Made by a program: the position numbers and the translations under genes | Notes under the pieces: generated by a model | Database searches by the model: none | Seen by the model: the letters and a program-made list of their open reading frames with translations, nothing else | What the model was told of the DNA's origin: nothing | NCBI RefSeq assembly: GCF_002272135.1 | Contig: NZ_NPBF01000032.1 | Location: 1-64,000, forward strand | Direction of reading: 5' to 3' | DNA: 64,000 nt | Origin: Virgibacillus sp. 7505 | Lineage (GTDB): Bacteria > Bacillota > Bacilli > Bacillales > Amphibacillaceae | Part shown: piece by piece, positions 81-6,967 of the stretch | Layout: every line of letters begins with the position of its first letter | Numbering within the stretch: position 1 is the stretch's first letter

Positions 81-107
81 AAAAACCGCCCCTGAAAAGG
101 CGGTTTT
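81..107 (-). terminator. Terminator of the glycosyltransferase operon
   Basis: A 9-base stem (82-90 with 99-107) runs into a T-tract on the minus strand and overlaps the stop codon of the gene ending at 106. It is nearly symmetric, so it could also act on plus-strand transcripts. The 80 bases to its left are AT-rich and show nothing else. Confidence 0.8.
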
Positions 108-2610
108 ATACTGGCTGGGTATAAGCTGAAATTTTCTCCTGGATAAATTGCCATACTCTTTCAGAAGACTTGCTGTCTTGGTAGTGATGCACTTGGTCTC
201 GAATCTGTTTCCGTTCAGCGCTATACCAAGAAGGGTTCTCTAAGAAGGTCGACAAAGCATCCTGCAGTGCCTCCTGCGTCGTCACCTTTGGTCCAGGTGT
301 CCAGTTCGTATAAGAATCGAGAATGAATCCACGATTCTGCTGATACGATTGAAGATCAACAGGTGAAAAGATAATTGGCTTATCCAATAATAAATAATCA
401 AAATAAATGGAGGAATAATCCGTAATCAGCATATCTGCGAGCGGCATAATTTCATATAAATCCATTCCATAACGAGTCAGCATCTCATCTGTAAGCAAAT
501 GCACACGTGTCTGCATCTCGAAATGATTCAAGAATAGCTTTTCTTCAGCTGGATGCAGCTTTACAATCAGCTCCAAATTTTCTCTCTCTAAGAAATCGTA
601 AAACTGATCATTATCGAAACTTTCCATCCCAAAAAGATTATCTCGATTAAGGTTTGTATCAGCTCGGTCATTGTGCGCCACTTGCCGATACGTCGGCATG
701 AAGAAAATCATCCGGCTTTCACTTGGGTCTATATCGAATTCTTCTCTTAGAAAGTGCATATCAGGCCGTTGCAGCATCAGATCATTACGTGGTGCACCCG
801 TCAGCTGGATATGCTCTGGATTCAATTTAAAACAGCGGATCATTAAGTTACTGAAGAACTCAGAATACGAACACACATAATTGATGCTTCCCCAACGATC
901 CGCCAACACATGCTTGCTCTGTTCATTTTTGTCCTGGAATCCCATTGCTTTAAGCGGAAAGCCATGCCAAGTGTCTATGATCAGCTGATTAGGATTGTAA
1001 AGCTTTTTATTATGCTTTATATTCGCCTCGGTAATAACCAGCACTTCGGCAGCCTTGACTTTCTCCTGAAACTCCTGTGTCTCCTGCTGCTGCAGCAGTT
1101 CAACATCAAATGTATCATGAATGGATTCCGGAATATGCTTCGCTAAAGCATACGTGTTCGAACCACTGCTATTACGCGCTACCATGACTAGCTTTTTACG
1201 ACCAGTTGTAGATACGGATTGTTCCTCTGTACGGAAAGGCGCCTCCCGATGCAGCTGATCAATTTTCCACGTTCCAGCTTTATTTATTAACTCAAGCCGG
1301 CAATAGATTTTCTCGGACCGATTTTGCTCCTTCCACATTTGGATGAGAAGTAAACGTACCGAGGCCCTTTTATAATGATAATCGACAGATTCTACTTTTG
1401 GATATGCAACCTGCCTTGTTACATCTGCATCTACAGGCTTGAACTCCTCGCTTATATATCGCTGGGTAAAAAAGCTGGCTAAGTAGTCAATCTCTTCCTC
1501 TGATTGAACAACCAACTCTGTCCCTTCAATCGCGCAAGCCAGGATATCATTAAGCACTTTATAATAAAGATATTGCGGGTCATGTATCGCCTGCATCGGA
1601 ATTTCTGCAGAGCTCTCCTCTTTCAGGGCAGTTTCCAATTGATCAATTACCGATTCAATGTAGTACGGCTGAACCATAGCCTGACAAGCTTCAGGAGTAG
1701 GCAGTTCATATTTACCTTCTGCAATGGCTGGCACATCTTCAAGTGTAGGCATCGACCCATGAGAACCCAGGTTGATAGGAACAACGCCTCTTGCCAGCGC
1801 TTCTATTTTCATCTGATTCGATTCGGGATAGCTGCCATTTAACATTAAAGCTGTCGCAGATTCTAGGAGTGACCAAAAGTCCGCAGCACTATCTTTCCAA
1901 ACAATTATTTCCTCTACCCCAATCCGCTGAGCCAATTGCTGTATAGCTGCCTTATCCGGTCCATCACCGATTATCGTTAGGGCCACATTGTCCTGTATGC
2001 TCCTGAAAGTGGTAAAAACCTGTTCGAAATAATTATCAAACAAAGTTAACTCTCCGACAAAAAAGAAATGGACTTTATCTTCTGGACGAGGTATCACAGC
2101 AGGCTTCCCCTGTATAATTGGCTCTCCGATCAAATGCAGCCACTGATCCTGAAAAGAATAGCGTTGCACAGCTTCCTCCAGCTGTTCATTCATCACTAAG
2201 TGACGATCACTAAATTTCAGCGCCTCTTCATATCCATATTCCTCTGGTGCTCCCTGCAGCCAAGAATAGATTCTCGGTAACGGACCATACAACTGCGCTA
2301 CTGCTGTTCGGCATACATAATTCATCAGCGGTGCACGTACTGCTACTATCACGTCCGGCTTGCCATGATGCCGCAAGCTATTTGTATACCCTTCGATTAA
2401 AGAATCTGGATTCTCATATTCCAGACCGCTCTTCTCTCCATAGTAGTGGATTTCCGGCAATGATGACTCCCATTCTGTATCCTCTGGTCGATAGGATTGG
2501 AACACACGCACGTGGTGACCACGTTTAGTCAGCAGACTTGCAGTCTTGGTTATAATCTGTTCCAGGTGGCCGTTGCCATCAGCGTATATAAAGGCAAAAT
2601 CAATGATCAT
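106..2610 (-). CDS. Fusion of a degenerate GT4-like module with a TagF-like CDP-glycerol glycerophosphotransferase
   Basis: 834 aa, about twice the size of either single enzyme. Residues 1-375 match along their length the family 4 glycosyltransferase encoded next door (2629-3954). Residues 380-460 match that protein's C-terminal extra domain. Residues 470-830 carry the TagB/TagF poly(glycerol-phosphate) transferase signature: DTWHG near 546-550, GAPRNDLM, PTYR, and a TDYSSIYFDYLLLDKP block. That family moves glycerol phosphate from CDP-glycerol onto an acceptor at the inner membrane face. In the GT4 module the usual Gly-Arg donor motif reads Gly-Glu (187), and the EX7E motif is disturbed (Pro262/Glu263 and Glu270), so this half may only bind substrate. 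The SD AAAGGAG precedes the ATG. It is the last gene of the three-gene unit behind hag. The link to flagellin or surface glycan is inferred from position; teichoic-acid-type work is the alternative. Confidence 0.8.
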   Translation of the reverse strand: MIIDFAFIYADGNGHLEQIITKTASLLTKRGHHVRVFQSYRPEDTEWESSLPEIHYYGEKSGLEYENPDSLIEGYTNSLRHHGKPDVIVAVRAPLMNYVCRTAVAQLYGPLPRIYSWLQGAPEEYGYEEALKFSDRHLVMNEQLEEAVQRYSFQDQWLHLIGEPIIQGKPAVIPRPEDKVHFFFVGELTLFDNYFEQVFTTFRSIQDNVALTIIGDGPDKAAIQQLAQRIGVEEIIVWKDSAADFWSLLESATALMLNGSYPESNQMKIEALARGVVPINLGSHGSMPTLEDVPAIAEGKYELPTPEACQAMVQPYYIESVIDQLETALKEESSAEIPMQAIHDPQYLYYKVLNDILACAIEGTELVVQSEEEIDYLASFFTQRYISEEFKPVDADVTRQVAYPKVESVDYHYKRASVRLLLIQMWKEQNRSEKIYCRLELINKAGTWKIDQLHREAPFRTEEQSVSTTGRKKLVMVARNSSGSNTYALAKHIPESIHDTFDVELLQQQETQEFQEKVKAAEVLVITEANIKHNKKLYNPNQLIIDTWHGFPLKAMGFQDKNEQSKHVLADRWGSINYVCSYSEFFSNLMIRCFKLNPEHIQLTGAPRNDLMLQRPDMHFLREEFDIDPSESRMIFFMPTYRQVAHNDRADTNLNRDNLFGMESFDNDQFYDFLERENLELIVKLHPAEEKLFLNHFEMQTRVHLLTDEMLTRYGMDLYEIMPLADMLITDYSSIYFDYLLLDKPIIFSPVDLQSYQQNRGFILDSYTNWTPGPKVTTQEALQDALSTFLENPSWYSAERKQIRDQVHHYQDSKSSERVWQFIQEKISAYTQPV

Positions 2611-2628
2611 GGTAAATACTCCTTTATA

Positions 2629-3954
2629 TTAAAAGATTCGTTTTACCTGCCAAGTTCCATTATCGTTCACAATTTTCACTCTGATTTCTTCTATATTATC
2701 ATGCCTGTCTTTTTGATAGCTAAAACGAACGATTGCTCTTGTGTAAGAATAATTAATAGCATTGATTTTCAAGTCATACCAATGGATGCCATTCGCTGAT
2801 AAGTGTTCTTCTAGAGCAGGATAAATATCCGCAGTTATGAATTTACAAGTAACTTCATCTTCTACATGACTCTCACTAACAATTTTTTCATTCACAATAA
2901 AATCATTAGTTGTTAGACTTTGGAGAATATCATCCATTCTCTCTACCACTCTCTCAGCTTCGTATTCTATAACTGAATCGATACACACCTGTGGATCAGG
3001 CAGCTTAACTTTTCCAGATTGTATATCGTTAAGAAGGTCTTTTATTCTATTTTTATCCCCTTTGGGAACAATCCATCCGTTAATACCATTCTTAACTATA
3101 TCCATGGGCCCATCACAATCAGTTGAGATAACCGCCACGCCGCGGGAGAGCGCTTCTACCAACACTAATCCAAACCCCTCAAAATCAGATGGCAAAACCA
3201 AAACCGAGGCTTCATCTATCTCGTCCCAGGGAGCATCCTTCCATCCTAACCATGTTATCTTATCATTAATATGCAATTCATCTGCTAAATTATAAAGCAT
3301 ATTCTTATCAGGACCATCTCCAATACAAGTTAGATCCCATTCATCATGAACACCCGCTAGCGCCCCTAATAATAAATCTAGTCTTTTTTCCTTATTACTC
3401 AATCTACCTATGAATATAATCTTCAATTCCTCAGGACGAATTATTTCTTTTTGTTCTATGTCTACAGGGTTGTTCACTAAATAGATCGGCTGTTCCTCAG
3501 TAAAGTCTTTTATTGTGCGTCCAATACTTGAAGAAATTGCAAAATGCGTATCGCTATACTTCAGAAATCTTCCTCCTCCAAAATAAGCCGGGGGTCCATG
3601 AAGCCAAGATACTACAGGAGTATCAGGCTTAAAGCGGGCAATAGCCGACCTGCAAATGTAGCTTAATATGGGAGCATGTGTGGCTATGACTACATCCGGC
3701 AGTTCCGCGCTCTTCAAGAAGTTTGTATAACCAGCTTGCATAGAAGAGACAGTTTCTTCCCCGACCTTTCCACCCTGGCCATAATAATATATTTCGGGTA
3801 TTGTTTCTGCCCAAGCTTTAAATTGCGGGGGATGTGTTTGTAATACACGCACTCTATTCCCTTTTCTCACAAGACCACTTACAACAGTAGTCAATACGTC
3901 CTCTAAACCGCCTTTTCCTTCTGCATATCCTAAAACGATATCAATTAGCATCAT
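2629..3954 (-). CDS. Glycosyltransferase family 4 with C-terminal accessory domain
   Basis: 441 aa, GT-B fold. The Gly-Arg motif (183-184) with nearby lysines 188/190, IGDGPDK (211-217) and the EX7E motif (Glu259, Glu267) of retaining family 4 enzymes are all present, so it should transfer a sugar from a nucleotide donor. Residues 1-320 are the enzyme. About 120 further residues form a separate C-terminal domain ending in DNGTWQVKRIF, and the same domain recurs inside the fusion protein encoded downstream. No signal peptide, so cytosolic. The start has ATGATG after AAAGAGG. A gap of 18 bases separates it from the downstream gene. The DNA is visibly AT-richer than the flagellar genes. Acceptor and donor unknown; position next to hag suggests flagellin glycan assembly. 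Confidence 0.85.
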   Translation of the reverse strand: MMLIDIVLGYAEGKGGLEDVLTTVVSGLVRKGNRVRVLQTHPPQFKAWAETIPEIYYYGQGGKVGEETVSSMQAGYTNFLKSAELPDVVIATHAPILSYICRSAIARFKPDTPVVSWLHGPPAYFGGGRFLKYSDTHFAISSSIGRTIKDFTEEQPIYLVNNPVDIEQKEIIRPEELKIIFIGRLSNKEKRLDLLLGALAGVHDEWDLTCIGDGPDKNMLYNLADELHINDKITWLGWKDAPWDEIDEASVLVLPSDFEGFGLVLVEALSRGVAVISTDCDGPMDIVKNGINGWIVPKGDKNRIKDLLNDIQSGKVKLPDPQVCIDSVIEYEAERVVERMDDILQSLTTNDFIVNEKIVSESHVEDEVTCKFITADIYPALEEHLSANGIHWYDLKINAINYSYTRAIVRFSYQKDRHDNIEEIRVKIVNDNGTWQVKRIF

Positions 3955-3982
3955 ATTCGCCTCTTTCTCTCTTTTAAATCAT

Positions 3983-4015
3983 AAAAAAGACACCTTATAT
4001 AAGGTGCGCTTTTTT
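3983..4015 (-). terminator. Bidirectional terminator between the GT2 and GT4 genes
   Basis: The stem CACCTT/AAGGTG (3991-4006) is flanked by an A-run on one side and a T-run on the other, and it overlaps the stop codon of the GT2 gene. It would make GT4 expression partly independent of, or lower than, the GT2 gene. Confidence 0.65.
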
Positions 4016-5915
4016 AAATTCCTAATAGTTTCTCTTCAAGCCACATACTATCCTTGAATAAATCTAAAGCTTTCATCACATATGGCTCAGGATCCGCGTC
4101 AGTTTCAATTAACTGCTTATAAAACAGGTAATTATCATTATATTTTTTTAACGCTTCTTTAGCTATTCTATTAGCTTCTTCCAAATTATCGTGCGCCTTT
4201 AACCATGTAATTATATTTAGATAGTCTTGTCTTTCTAAAGTATGTTCTTCCGATTTTTCATATAAAATCATAGCGAGATCTTGCTGTGATAATTCGAACA
4301 ATATTCCTCCAAGCTTTGCATATATTGATGGAGAGAATAAAGAAATTTGTTCCAGCAACTCATTAGCAATTTCGTAATTTTCGTACTTGATTAATTTCTT
4401 AATCATATAACTAAATTCTAAAGTATAATCTTCTTTTTTCAGTTCGTCTTTATTAAAATTGTCATCGATCAGGAAACCTAATACTGAATTTAGTATGATA
4501 TTTCTATATACATGTTTTAAGTTTTGGGAAGGTTCTAAGCGATGCAATAAATAGATATCCCCTGCATCGATAAATTTAAGTTGTAAAGCCTTAGCAAGTT
4601 TTGGTTCGTCGTTTTTCAGCCAATCATTTTCAAGTCCAGAAAATCTAATTGCAGATATTTTCACTTCTAAAATGTCTAAAACGTCTTTATCCATTTTTAC
4701 ATTGTTTGCAATTTCCCTGACAAGTTCATATAGACCTTCATTTAGAAGAAAACGTATGACATCATATAGATGGAATTCTAGATAGGGTTTTGTGATCTCA
4801 AATGTTTCTTTTGCAGAAGTATGAATTGCAAGTATCTTCAAAAGGCTTGTGAGTGAGTCAAAGCAGCGGTTATTTATATTCAAGGCTTTGGAATAATAAG
4901 CTACAGCCTTCTCCATATCTTTTTCGAGTTCGTAAATTTTACCTAACCTTAAAGATGGTAGATATTCAATTGCATCTGAACTCTTCACAACAGTTTTAAA
5001 CGTTGATTTTTCACTTAATATTAGCGTGAAAACCTGCTTTGCATCTTCAAGTCTACCTTGGGCTATATAAATAGAACCTTTAATATATAGGAAATCTGCT
5101 GCATCTTGATATATTCTTATCGCATCTTGGAGTACATTAAGCGCATCATTATGTCTATCCAACAAAATCAATGTTTCTGTAATATTAAGCAAACATATAG
5201 GAACCCAATTTATAAAAGGATCTTCTTTTTTCTTGTATGCAGTTACAAAAGCATCAAGTGCTTGTTCGTATTTCTTTTCTATCTTCAACTCGTTACCAAG
5301 ATTATAATAGTCGAAACCACTTTTTTCTCTCTTAAGTTGTAGATTTATTAATTTCTTGTTTCTATTTGTCTTTTGCTTTGTTTTCACTACTTCTTCCATG
5401 TAACCAGAGTGATATGCGATTAGATCAGATAATTTAACAGTGATATTCTTATTTTCTTTATGTGTTATTTGTTCATGTATAGCTCTGGTATATTCATAAG
5501 CACCGGAATTCTTATACAATCTCACATGTTTATTTTCAACAATTCGATTCCCATTGTCACCCACGAAATTAACTATATTTATTGCATACACATCATCTTT
5601 ACTATTTTTCAAATCTTCGATTACAGCGCGAGCATTTGTTGCCTCAAGAAATTCATCTGCGTCTAATACAAGAATCCATTCACCTAGAGCATGACTAGCA
5701 GCAAAATTCCTTGCATCAGCAAAGCTATTATTCCACTCAAAGTAAAATAGACGTACATTTTCATACTCTTTAATTATTTCGATTGTACTGTCAGTAGAGC
5801 CCGTATCGACAATAACAATATCTTCTACTAAATCCACAACTGAATCTAAACAACGTTTTATCACTTTCTCTTCATTCTTTACAATCATACAAAGAGAAAC
5901 AATTGGTTTTTTCAA
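4014..5915 (-). CDS. Glycosyltransferase family 2 fused to TPR repeats
   Basis: 633 aa from the chosen start. Residues 4-230 are a GT-A family 2 domain: SLCMIVKNEE at the start, VDTGSTD (36-42), and the metal-binding DAD at 85-87 in VLDADEF. The remaining 400 residues are helical tetratricopeptide-type repeats, as in the SunS-like and other protein-modifying GT2 enzymes whose TPRs hold the acceptor. I start at TTG 5915 because GAGGTGG lies 8 bases upstream; the longer frame begins on GTG 5927 inside that SD. The gene starts only 18 bases beyond the hag terminator, leaving no room for a separate promoter, so it probably depends on hag read-through. Strongly AT-rich compared with hag, a possible sign of transfer. 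A role in flagellin O-glycosylation is inferred from position and architecture; substrate unknown. Confidence 0.85.
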   Translation of the reverse strand: MKKPIVSLCMIVKNEEKVIKRCLDSVVDLVEDIVIVDTGSTDSTIEIIKEYENVRLFYFEWNNSFADARNFAASHALGEWILVLDADEFLEATNARAVIEDLKNSKDDVYAINIVNFVGDNGNRIVENKHVRLYKNSGAYEYTRAIHEQITHKENKNITVKLSDLIAYHSGYMEEVVKTKQKTNRNKKLINLQLKREKSGFDYYNLGNELKIEKKYEQALDAFVTAYKKKEDPFINWVPICLLNITETLILLDRHNDALNVLQDAIRIYQDAADFLYIKGSIYIAQGRLEDAKQVFTLILSEKSTFKTVVKSSDAIEYLPSLRLGKIYELEKDMEKAVAYYSKALNINNRCFDSLTSLLKILAIHTSAKETFEITKPYLEFHLYDVIRFLLNEGLYELVREIANNVKMDKDVLDILEVKISAIRFSGLENDWLKNDEPKLAKALQLKFIDAGDIYLLHRLEPSQNLKHVYRNIILNSVLGFLIDDNFNKDELKKEDYTLEFSYMIKKLIKYENYEIANELLEQISLFSPSIYAKLGGILFELSQQDLAMILYEKSEEHTLERQDYLNIITWLKAHDNLEEANRIAKEALKKYNDNYLFYKQLIETDADPEPYVMKALDLFKDSMWLEEKLLGI

Positions 5916-5933
5916 AATTAACACCACCTCAAT

Positions 5934-5998
5934 CTATAAAAATACTGGTCCAAAAAATTGGACCAGTATTTTTATAGGCGAAAAAAGATTCGCCTATA
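5934..5998 (-). terminator. Two overlapping hairpins after hag
   Basis: A perfect 20-base inverted repeat (5934-5953 with 5958-5977, loop of 4) has a T-tract in its 3' arm on the hag strand. A second 10-base hairpin (5973-5982 with 5989-5998) shares bases 5973-5977 with it, so both cannot form completely. The larger one is a classical intrinsic terminator placed just before the SD of the next gene. Confidence 0.85.
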
Positions 5999-6004
5999 AT
6001 GAAA

Positions 6005-6841
6005 TTACTGAAGAAGTTGCAATACACCTTGTGGCTGCTGGTTAGCTTGTGCAAGCATAGACTGTGCAGCTTGAGAAAGGATATTGTTTTTAGTGAATTC
6101 CATCATTTCAGAAGCCATGTCAACGTCACGAATACGAGATTCAGAAGCTGTTAGGTTTTCTGAAGATGTTTGCAAGTTGTTGATTGTGTGATCCAAACGG
6201 TTTTGGTAAGCACCAAGTTTAGAGCGCTCAGCAGAAACTGTTTCGATTGCAGCGTTGATTGTAGAAATCGCAGCGTTAGCATCACTTTGAGAAGAGATGT
6301 TGATACCAGCAGTAGCAGAATCACCTTCTACGCCTAGTGCAGAAGCACCCATGTCAGCAATTGTAAGTTCAATGTTTTGATCTTGGTTAGCACCGATATG
6401 GAATGTCATTGCAGTTGCAGCTACATCACCGTTGATTAGTTTCTTCGTGTTGAATTCAGTGTCTGTAGAGATACGAGTGATCTCTTGAGCCAACTGATCC
6501 ACTTCTTTTTGAAGCTCTGCACGGTCTGTATCAGTGTTAGTGTCGTTGGCAGACTGTGTAGCCAATTCACGCATACGCTGTAGGATAGAGTGAGTTTCGT
6601 TCAAAGCACCCTCAGCAGTTTGGATCAAAGAGATACCGTCTTGTGCGTTTTTGGAAGCCATGTCAAGACCACGGATCTGTCCGCGCATTTTTTCGGAGAT
6701 TGCTAGACCTGCAGCATCGTCTCCAGCTTTGTTGATTTTAAGACCTGAAGATAGTTTTTCCAAAGATCCTTGTGTTGCAGCAGAGTTAGCACTTAGTTTG
6801 TTGTAAGTGTTAAGAGCAGCGATATTATGATTGATTCTCAT
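6005..6841 (-). CDS. hag: Flagellin
   Basis: 278 aa filament subunit. It has the conserved flagellin N-terminus (MRINHNIAALNTYNKL, with SSGLKINKAGDDAAGLAISEKMRGQIRGL) and C-terminus (ENLTASESRIRDVDMASEMMEFTKNNIL, ending QGVLQLLQ). The middle part (about 140-200) is short, so the surface-exposed domains D2/D3 are nearly absent; B. subtilis Hag has 304 residues. The start is ATG 6841, with AAGGAGGA 8 bases upstream; a longer frame from 6877 lacks homology. Exported by the flagellar type III system. It has its own sigma-D promoter and a CsrA-controlled leader. FliW and CsrA are encoded just upstream and three glycosyltransferase-type genes just downstream, which makes filament modification likely. 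Confidence 0.98.
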   Translation of the reverse strand: MRINHNIAALNTYNKLSANSAATQGSLEKLSSGLKINKAGDDAAGLAISEKMRGQIRGLDMASKNAQDGISLIQTAEGALNETHSILQRMRELATQSANDTNTDTDRAELQKEVDQLAQEITRISTDTEFNTKKLINGDVAATAMTFHIGANQDQNIELTIADMGASALGVEGDSATAGINISSQSDANAAISTINAAIETVSAERSKLGAYQNRLDHTINNLQTSSENLTASESRIRDVDMASEMMEFTKNNILSQAAQSMLAQANQQPQGVLQLLQ

Positions 6842-6850
6842 TTTAAAAAT

Positions 6851-6887
6851 TCCTCCTTGAGTGTAAGTACAGCCCACATCCTTGTGG
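6851..6887 (-). promoter_or_regulatory. CsrA binding sites in the hag leader
   Basis: On the mRNA strand the hairpin CCACA-AGGA-TGTGG (6874-6887) shows GGA in its loop, the textbook CsrA/RsmA site. A second GGA site is the SD itself (AAGGAGGA, 6851-6858). Two sites of this arrangement mediate CsrA repression of hag in B. subtilis, relieved by FliW. An 8-base complementary pair (6866-6873 with 6929-6936) could close the whole leader around the upstream site. Confidence 0.75.
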
Positions 6888-6940: not shown

Positions 6941-6967
6941 ATATCGGAGGATTTCAGCATATGTTTA
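6941..6967 (-). promoter_or_regulatory. Sigma-D promoter of hag
   Basis: Minus strand TAAA (6964-6967), 15 bases, TCCGATAT (6941-6948). The sigma-D consensus is TAAA-N14/16-GCCGATAT, so only one position differs. Transcription should begin near 6934, giving a leader of about 93 bases. Confidence 0.85.

Follow-up and report, generated by a model that had tools for sequence, protein, structure and literature searches.

We analysed a stretch of 64,000 nucleotides, hereafter the window, from Virgibacillus sp. 7505 (NCBI RefSeq assembly GCF_002272135.1, contig NZ_NPBF01000032.1, positions 1 to 64,000), in which an island of three genes for two glycosyltransferases and a glycosyltransferase-TagF fusion lies behind the flagellin gene hag. 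We assign the host to the genus Terribacillus. We consider it probable, from the kinship of these genes and their neighbourhoods in other genomes, that the island builds a flagellin glycan capped with glycerol phosphate. An earlier reading of the same DNA (the original prediction) had placed a gene of glycosyltransferase family 2 with tetratricopeptide repeats (GT2-TPR), a glycosyltransferase family 4 gene (GT4) and a GT4-TagF fusion behind hag on the same strand, and open frames and profile matches confirm this arrangement; all four genes are open on the minus strand, in the following order:

6005..6877, minus strand: hag, the flagellin gene, whose product is the proposed acceptor (NCBIfam flagellin Hag, 387 bits against a cut-off of 352)
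4014..5927, minus strand: GT2-TPR, a GmaR-like glycosyltransferase (Pfam GT2, 94.5 bits, plus TPRs)
2629..3954, minus strand: GT4, a WaaB-like glycosyltransferase (PF00534, 117 bits)
106..2610, minus strand: GT4-TagF fusion (PF04464, 211.6 bits)

We propose that the GmaR-like GT2-TPR would put a first sugar (N-acetylglucosamine, GlcNAc, by analogy) on serine or threonine residues of flagellin in the cytoplasm, that GT4 would attach a second sugar, yielding a short O-glycan, and that the TagF half of the fusion would then move glycerol phosphate from cytidine diphosphate (CDP)-glycerol onto this glycan, with CDP-glycerol supplied in the host by TagD, a housekeeping enzyme of its wall teichoic acid (WTA) pathway. 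Substrates, step order and product are deduced here from sequence. That the filament carries a glycan, possibly decorated with glycerol phosphate, had been suggested before, and it is now supported by GmaR kinship, by single GT2-TPR-TagF chains in other genomes, by tagD genes within related islands and by WTA-type genes lying separately in the host.

Enzymes of the island

The GT2-TPR protein is of the GmaR type, combining a GT2 domain with a DxD sequence (a DADE motif), a long TPR region and homology to GmaR; its nearest chains in the PDB were the GmaR GT2 domain (E 5.8e-48) and the GmaR TPR part (2.5e-40), followed by SunS. Its longest frame comprises 637 residues, but the likelier start is the TTG at 5915, which a GAGGTG box precedes. 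Listeria GmaR, described as attaching GlcNAc to flagellin, resembles it in its GT2 domain and TPR region, in its 637 residues and in homology across most of the length (PMC9638930), and by analogy GT2-TPR would transfer GlcNAc to flagellin. The anti-repressor role of GmaR is not expected in Terribacillus. MogR matched in none of 10 Terribacillus genomes (our genus sample, the window's own included), and control genomes were silent as well. The gene is A+T-rich (G+C 0.31 vs. 0.44 in the fusion), as are the two orthologues measured (0.31 and 0.33), which suggests a later acquisition. A GT2-TPR paralogue of about 358 residues is present in nine of the 10 genus genomes, the tenth having a shorter frame and the copy in the window's genome being flagged with stops.

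The fusion comprises a decayed GT4 part (residues 1-335), a middle domain (336-470) and a TagF-type glycerophosphotransferase (470-834), the last matching PF04464 at residues 517-823 (cut-off 22.1). H549 and H686 align with the catalytic H444 (in the WHG motif) and H584 of TagF, residues whose roles in TagF-type enzymes are treated in PMC11666461 and PMC5974469; the former source gives WHG as the form found in TagF and TagF-like glycerol-3-phosphate polymerases. WHG is present in 20 of the 21 rows of the flagellar TagF clade described below, and the remaining row has a gap. When the CDP-glycerol contacts given in PMC11666461 were mapped onto the fusion, H549, G550, P552, R608, H686, S733, S734 and D738 agreed and three positions, given below, differed, with F391 falling outside the mapping. 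The protein has the TagF fold, its top structural matches being TagF itself, some with CDP-glycerol. It lies under the NCBIfam equivalog cut-off for WTA enzymes (83.7 bits against the TarF model, where 550 are required), a strict threshold because the genome's own WTA-type TagF, at 457.5 bits, is under it too. CDP-glycerol is the donor that we infer for the TagF half, from the linkage of tagD in relatives.

In the free GT4, the donor-site motifs GR..K and E(x7)E are both in place. About 95 residues extend its C-terminus, and the end of this extension is homologous to part of fusion residues 370-465 (hhalign probability 92.8, E 4e-7, 45 columns). The GT4 half of the fusion scores slightly under the Pfam cut-off (25.6 vs. 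26.4 bits) and is short by about 17 residues; in all seven fusions compared, GR..K is missing and the His of LHG has become Gln, and the first E of E(x7)E is gone in the window's fusion and retained in the other six. Because its donor-binding residues are lost, this half is probably catalytically dead, a pseudo-glycosyltransferase, that is related to the neighbouring GT4 and probably now holds the acceptor only. The predicted GT4-TagF fusion thus stands for its TagF half, which keeps the active-site residues, but probably not for a GT4 half able to bind a donor; if our reading is right, the decayed half would exemplify a glycosyltransferase turned into a binding module.

Flagellar TagF loci in Terribacillus and beyond

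The fusion is full-length in 8/10 genus genomes and follows hag, in the same orientation, in 8/8, a repetition because of which we do not regard the arrangement as chance. Position 1 of the window is also base 1 of its contig, which ends just past the fusion gene, and in the other seven of these genomes a STAS gene, flaG, fliD and fliS follow the fusion. A one-contig genome of the same species has this order (a STAS-domain gene, flaG, fliD, fliS), and the island therefore sits between hag and fliD, where the original prediction had noted flagellin sugar genes in several Bacillaceae. What lies between hag and the fusion varies: GT2-TPR and GT4 in four genomes (the window's included), a distant GT2-TPR and another GT2 in one (L028), and nothing in three, namely Terribacillus strain 7517-1 (L025/L077), DSM 21619 (L026/L080) and T. 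halophilus (L027/L081); the fusion is therefore the more constant part, with the glycosyltransferases exchanged. The two genus genomes that lack the fusion carry other sets (GT2-TPR and GT2 at L075; Maf at L074).

Beyond the genus, the named genome collection yielded 442 relatives; we surveyed the best 80, and 79 of these entered the tree. The TagF of the window belongs to a 21-row clade (bootstrap 99, SH-aLRT 98), 18 of which are flagellar loci, the other three comprising two at contig ends and one from C. mangenotii; the clade spans Bacillaceae, Sporolactobacillaceae, Anoxybacillaceae, Defluviitaleaceae, Syntrophomonadaceae, Peptostreptococcaceae and Peptococcaceae. Over the 83 tree rows, the flagellar label changes nine times, vs. 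a mean of 24 after shuffling, with a value as low in 0/500 shuffles. GT2-TPR and TagF are joined in a single chain (1004 to 1210 residues) that immediately follows hag in Sporolactobacillus (L085 and L086, the latter seen by BLAST only), in Oceanobacillus caeni (L030/L091) and in one further genus (L031). Such a chain ties TagF to a flagellin-modifying step more strongly than neighbourhood does. A survey of other genomes for the fusion beside hag had been among the checks proposed for the island, and the Terribacillus fusions, the flagellar clade and the single chains are what it returned.

We are more tentative about a broader proposal, to which we give slightly less than an even chance: that Gram-positive flagella covered in teichoic-acid units are widespread and unrecognised, with glycerol phosphate added to flagellin by a TagF domain acting alongside a GmaR-like transferase, at times within one protein, with some bacteria keeping CDP-glycerol synthesis for this alone, and with some Terribacillus perhaps placing the group without a dedicated sugar transferase. 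Under our reading of a glycerol phosphate cap, the filament of a range of Bacillota would carry teichoic-acid chemistry that alters its charge, phage receptors and host recognition of the filament might be changed, and motility would be linked to the CDP-glycerol pool. The reading also offers a test for PF04464 genes annotated as WTA enzymes, of which those that belong to this clade and lie beside hag are probably misassigned.

Donor supply and alternative explanations

Within 1.5 kb of TagF, tagD is found in 12 of 27 flagellar loci, and all five island tagD genes scanned score above the curated equivalog cut-off for glycerol-3-phosphate cytidylyltransferase. Among 16 genomes with this TagF, 14 have a tagD above the cut-off, one has pieces below it and one has no match; matches below the cut-off count for little, because controls ring too (12/14, two of them above the cut-off). 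In the draft genomes of Anoxybacillus tengchongensis and Thermosyntropha lipolytica, no tagD was found except the copy inside the hag-TagF island, whose genes share one strand, and CDP-glycerol therefore seems to be made there for flagellin. This result and the single GT2-TPR-TagF chains go further than the original prediction, and both suggest that CDP-glycerol acts on flagellin. In the draft of C. mangenotii, the only tagD found is likewise the copy beside this TagF, its link to hag being weak. The genome of the window has one TIGR01518 match, the TagD of its WTA region.

Several observations weigh against capping with glycerol phosphate as we propose it. Three CDP-glycerol contact positions listed in PMC11666461 differ in the fusion (551, T to F; 638, A to M; 684, R to K). 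In 17 of 52 non-flagellar loci, too, tagD neighbours TagF, because of which the linkage marks the wider TagF family, and in no Terribacillus locus seen are the two adjacent. Psychrobacillus sp. OK032, a genome with a flagellar TagF, gave no tagD match whatever, and the donor may differ between flagellar TagF members. The three Terribacillus genomes with nothing between hag and the fusion gave no close GT2-TPR relative and no free GT4 of this kind anywhere in the genome. Of two C. mangenotii genomes, one has hag close to TagF, the two genes lying on opposite strands. Finally, the TagF and TagB of the host's WTA region score under the curated WTA cut-offs, because of which that pathway is assigned by kinship (best match).

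Beside the flagellar TagF of Psychrobacillus sp. OK032 lies a nucleotidyltransferase-HAD fusion (L088:9297-10808), a protein that may make another CDP-alcohol for flagellin. No full-length counterpart was found in Terribacillus, where 10/10 genomes match separate HAD and nucleotidyltransferase proteins only.

An island of the same architecture could instead transfer a different CDP-activated group, either a phospho-amino acid, as in Clostridioides difficile type A flagellin, or ribitol phosphate. The TagF-like CD0244 of that system is proposed to move phosphothreonine from CDP-threonine onto flagellin GlcNAc (PMC10714395), the Psychrobacillus fusion beside a flagellar TagF recalls CD0242 plus CD0241 in a genome that has no tagD match, and three contact positions diverge from TagF. 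We nevertheless judge this unlikely: the three island genes encode no nucleotidyltransferase, kinase or methyltransferase, no Terribacillus genome gave a full-length match to the Psychrobacillus protein (searched for by that fusion, and not by CD0241-CD0243 themselves), and two genomes have tagD solely inside a one-strand hag-TagF island. It is improbable that flagellin receives from the fusion and GT4 a teichoic-acid-like polymer in which sugar and glycerol phosphate alternate, in the manner of glycosyltransferase-TagF capsule polymerases, rather than one cap, since a GT4 half that has lost its donor residues should leave the fusion alone unable to polymerise; a free GT4 of this kind was not found in three fusion-bearing genomes, and a long polyanion would have to traverse the flagellar export channel.

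PF04464 enzymes mainly serve teichoic acids and capsules, and this counts for the idea that the island makes WTA or another envelope polymer and that its proximity to hag is accidental, as does the lack of any flagellar gene in the examined stretch for 52 of the 79 tree relatives. However, the hag linkage spans families, TagF is fused to a GmaR-like enzyme, and WTA-type genes are located elsewhere in the host, where contig C4 holds TagF-, TagB-, TagD- and TagO/MraY-type genes together, with a TagA-type gene at a distance of about 12 kb. The host WTA pathway should have no need of the island, and we find the envelope reading very improbable. We find it equally improbable that TagF, in the three fusion-only genomes at least, adds glycerol phosphate straight to side chains of flagellin with no sugar between. 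There hag and the fusion stand alone, no close GmaR-like or GT4 partner is present elsewhere and PF01973 (Maf) gave no match, and the TagF half is still conserved (dN 0.020 and dS 0.85, nonsynonymous and synonymous divergence, between two of them). Yet the paralogue of about 358 residues could provide a first sugar, and weaker GT4 matches are present, the search having been confined to the families named here.

A further PF04464 protein of the host (L021:11275-13314; its own contig C32, about 131 kb) has QHG in place of WHG and adjoins a DUF6270 protein; it is perhaps a hexose-phosphate or capsule enzyme.

Known systems, transcription signals and flagellin genes

A close precedent is the C. 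difficile type A flagellin modification, encoded by CD0240-CD0244 (PMC10714395, PMC4441256), in which flagellin acquires GlcNAc from a glycosyltransferase and, according to the proposal made there, a TagF-like enzyme adds a CDP-activated phospho-group to that GlcNAc. There, however, the group is N-methylphosphothreonine and requires CD0241-CD0243, of which CD0242 and CD0241 are proposed to serve CD0244 (PMC10714395); relatives of the window's island carry tagD instead, and genes of the CD0241, CD0242 and CD0243 types (phosphothreonine, CDP-threonine, methylation) are absent from the three island genes, the rest of the genome not having been searched with these proteins. Pseudomonas aeruginosa FgtA (PA1091), as described in PMC10714395, unites a putative glycosyltransferase and a putative phosphotransferase in one flagellin-acting protein and so, likened by that description, is a precedent for the GT2-TPR-TagF chains, but it is linked to homologues of CD0241-CD0243. 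TagF-like capsule polymerases and CpsA-type transition transferases share with our fusion the joining of a glycosyltransferase to TagF, the WHG motif and the CDP-glycerol donor (PMC5974469, PMC11666461); the systems in those accounts are Gram-negative capsules, with an active glycosyltransferase part and no flagellin link, whereas the GT4 half of the fusion is decayed. Flagellin glycosylation islands in Geobacillus lie between flagellin and flaG, and one strain has tagD together with a gene named pgs; the authors take the pair as a sign of lipid modification, and their account of these islands discusses no glycerophosphotransferase (PMC5109656).

The earlier suggestion that the modification is new to flagella is therefore to be narrowed: we found no report of glycerol phosphate on flagellin in the open-licence literature searched, but transfer of a phospho-group onto flagellin by a TagF-like enzyme has already been proposed in C. 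difficile. Because CD0244 and FgtA precede it, phospho-capping by such an enzyme is not new; so far as the literature searched goes, only the glycerol is.

A candidate promoter of the SigD type precedes hag (6941..6967, minus strand; TAAA, 15 nt, TCCGATAT), and the true start of hag is the ATG at 6841, which gives 278 residues (start and ribosome site read in the sequence). The remaining features are:

5939..5998, minus strand: two stable hairpins in the gap between hag and GT2-TPR (fold)
82..107, minus strand: terminator-like site at the island end (11-pair stem and T-rich tail)

The hairpins fold at -37.3 kcal/mol (z -10.7; equally stable shuffles 0/200) and are probably a terminator or attenuator that keeps island transcripts scarcer than hag. 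Terminator-like sites as a class number five in the region, vs. 4.9 expected by chance. Together, the hairpins and the terminator-like site, neither of which figured in the original prediction, fit a low-level read-through unit behind a highly expressed hag.

In the three fusion-only genomes, the variable region of flagellin contains an insert, which is absent from the four other flagellins aligned. The hag of T. halophilus is split by a group I intron (L027:8468-8826; RF00028, 90.9 bits, gathering threshold 50), and introns in flagellin genes are known from thermophilic Bacillus (PMC3984707). The hag of O. caeni (L030:6116-6366) is likewise divided into two frames by a group I intron, inserted at another position (RF00028, 58.5 bits).
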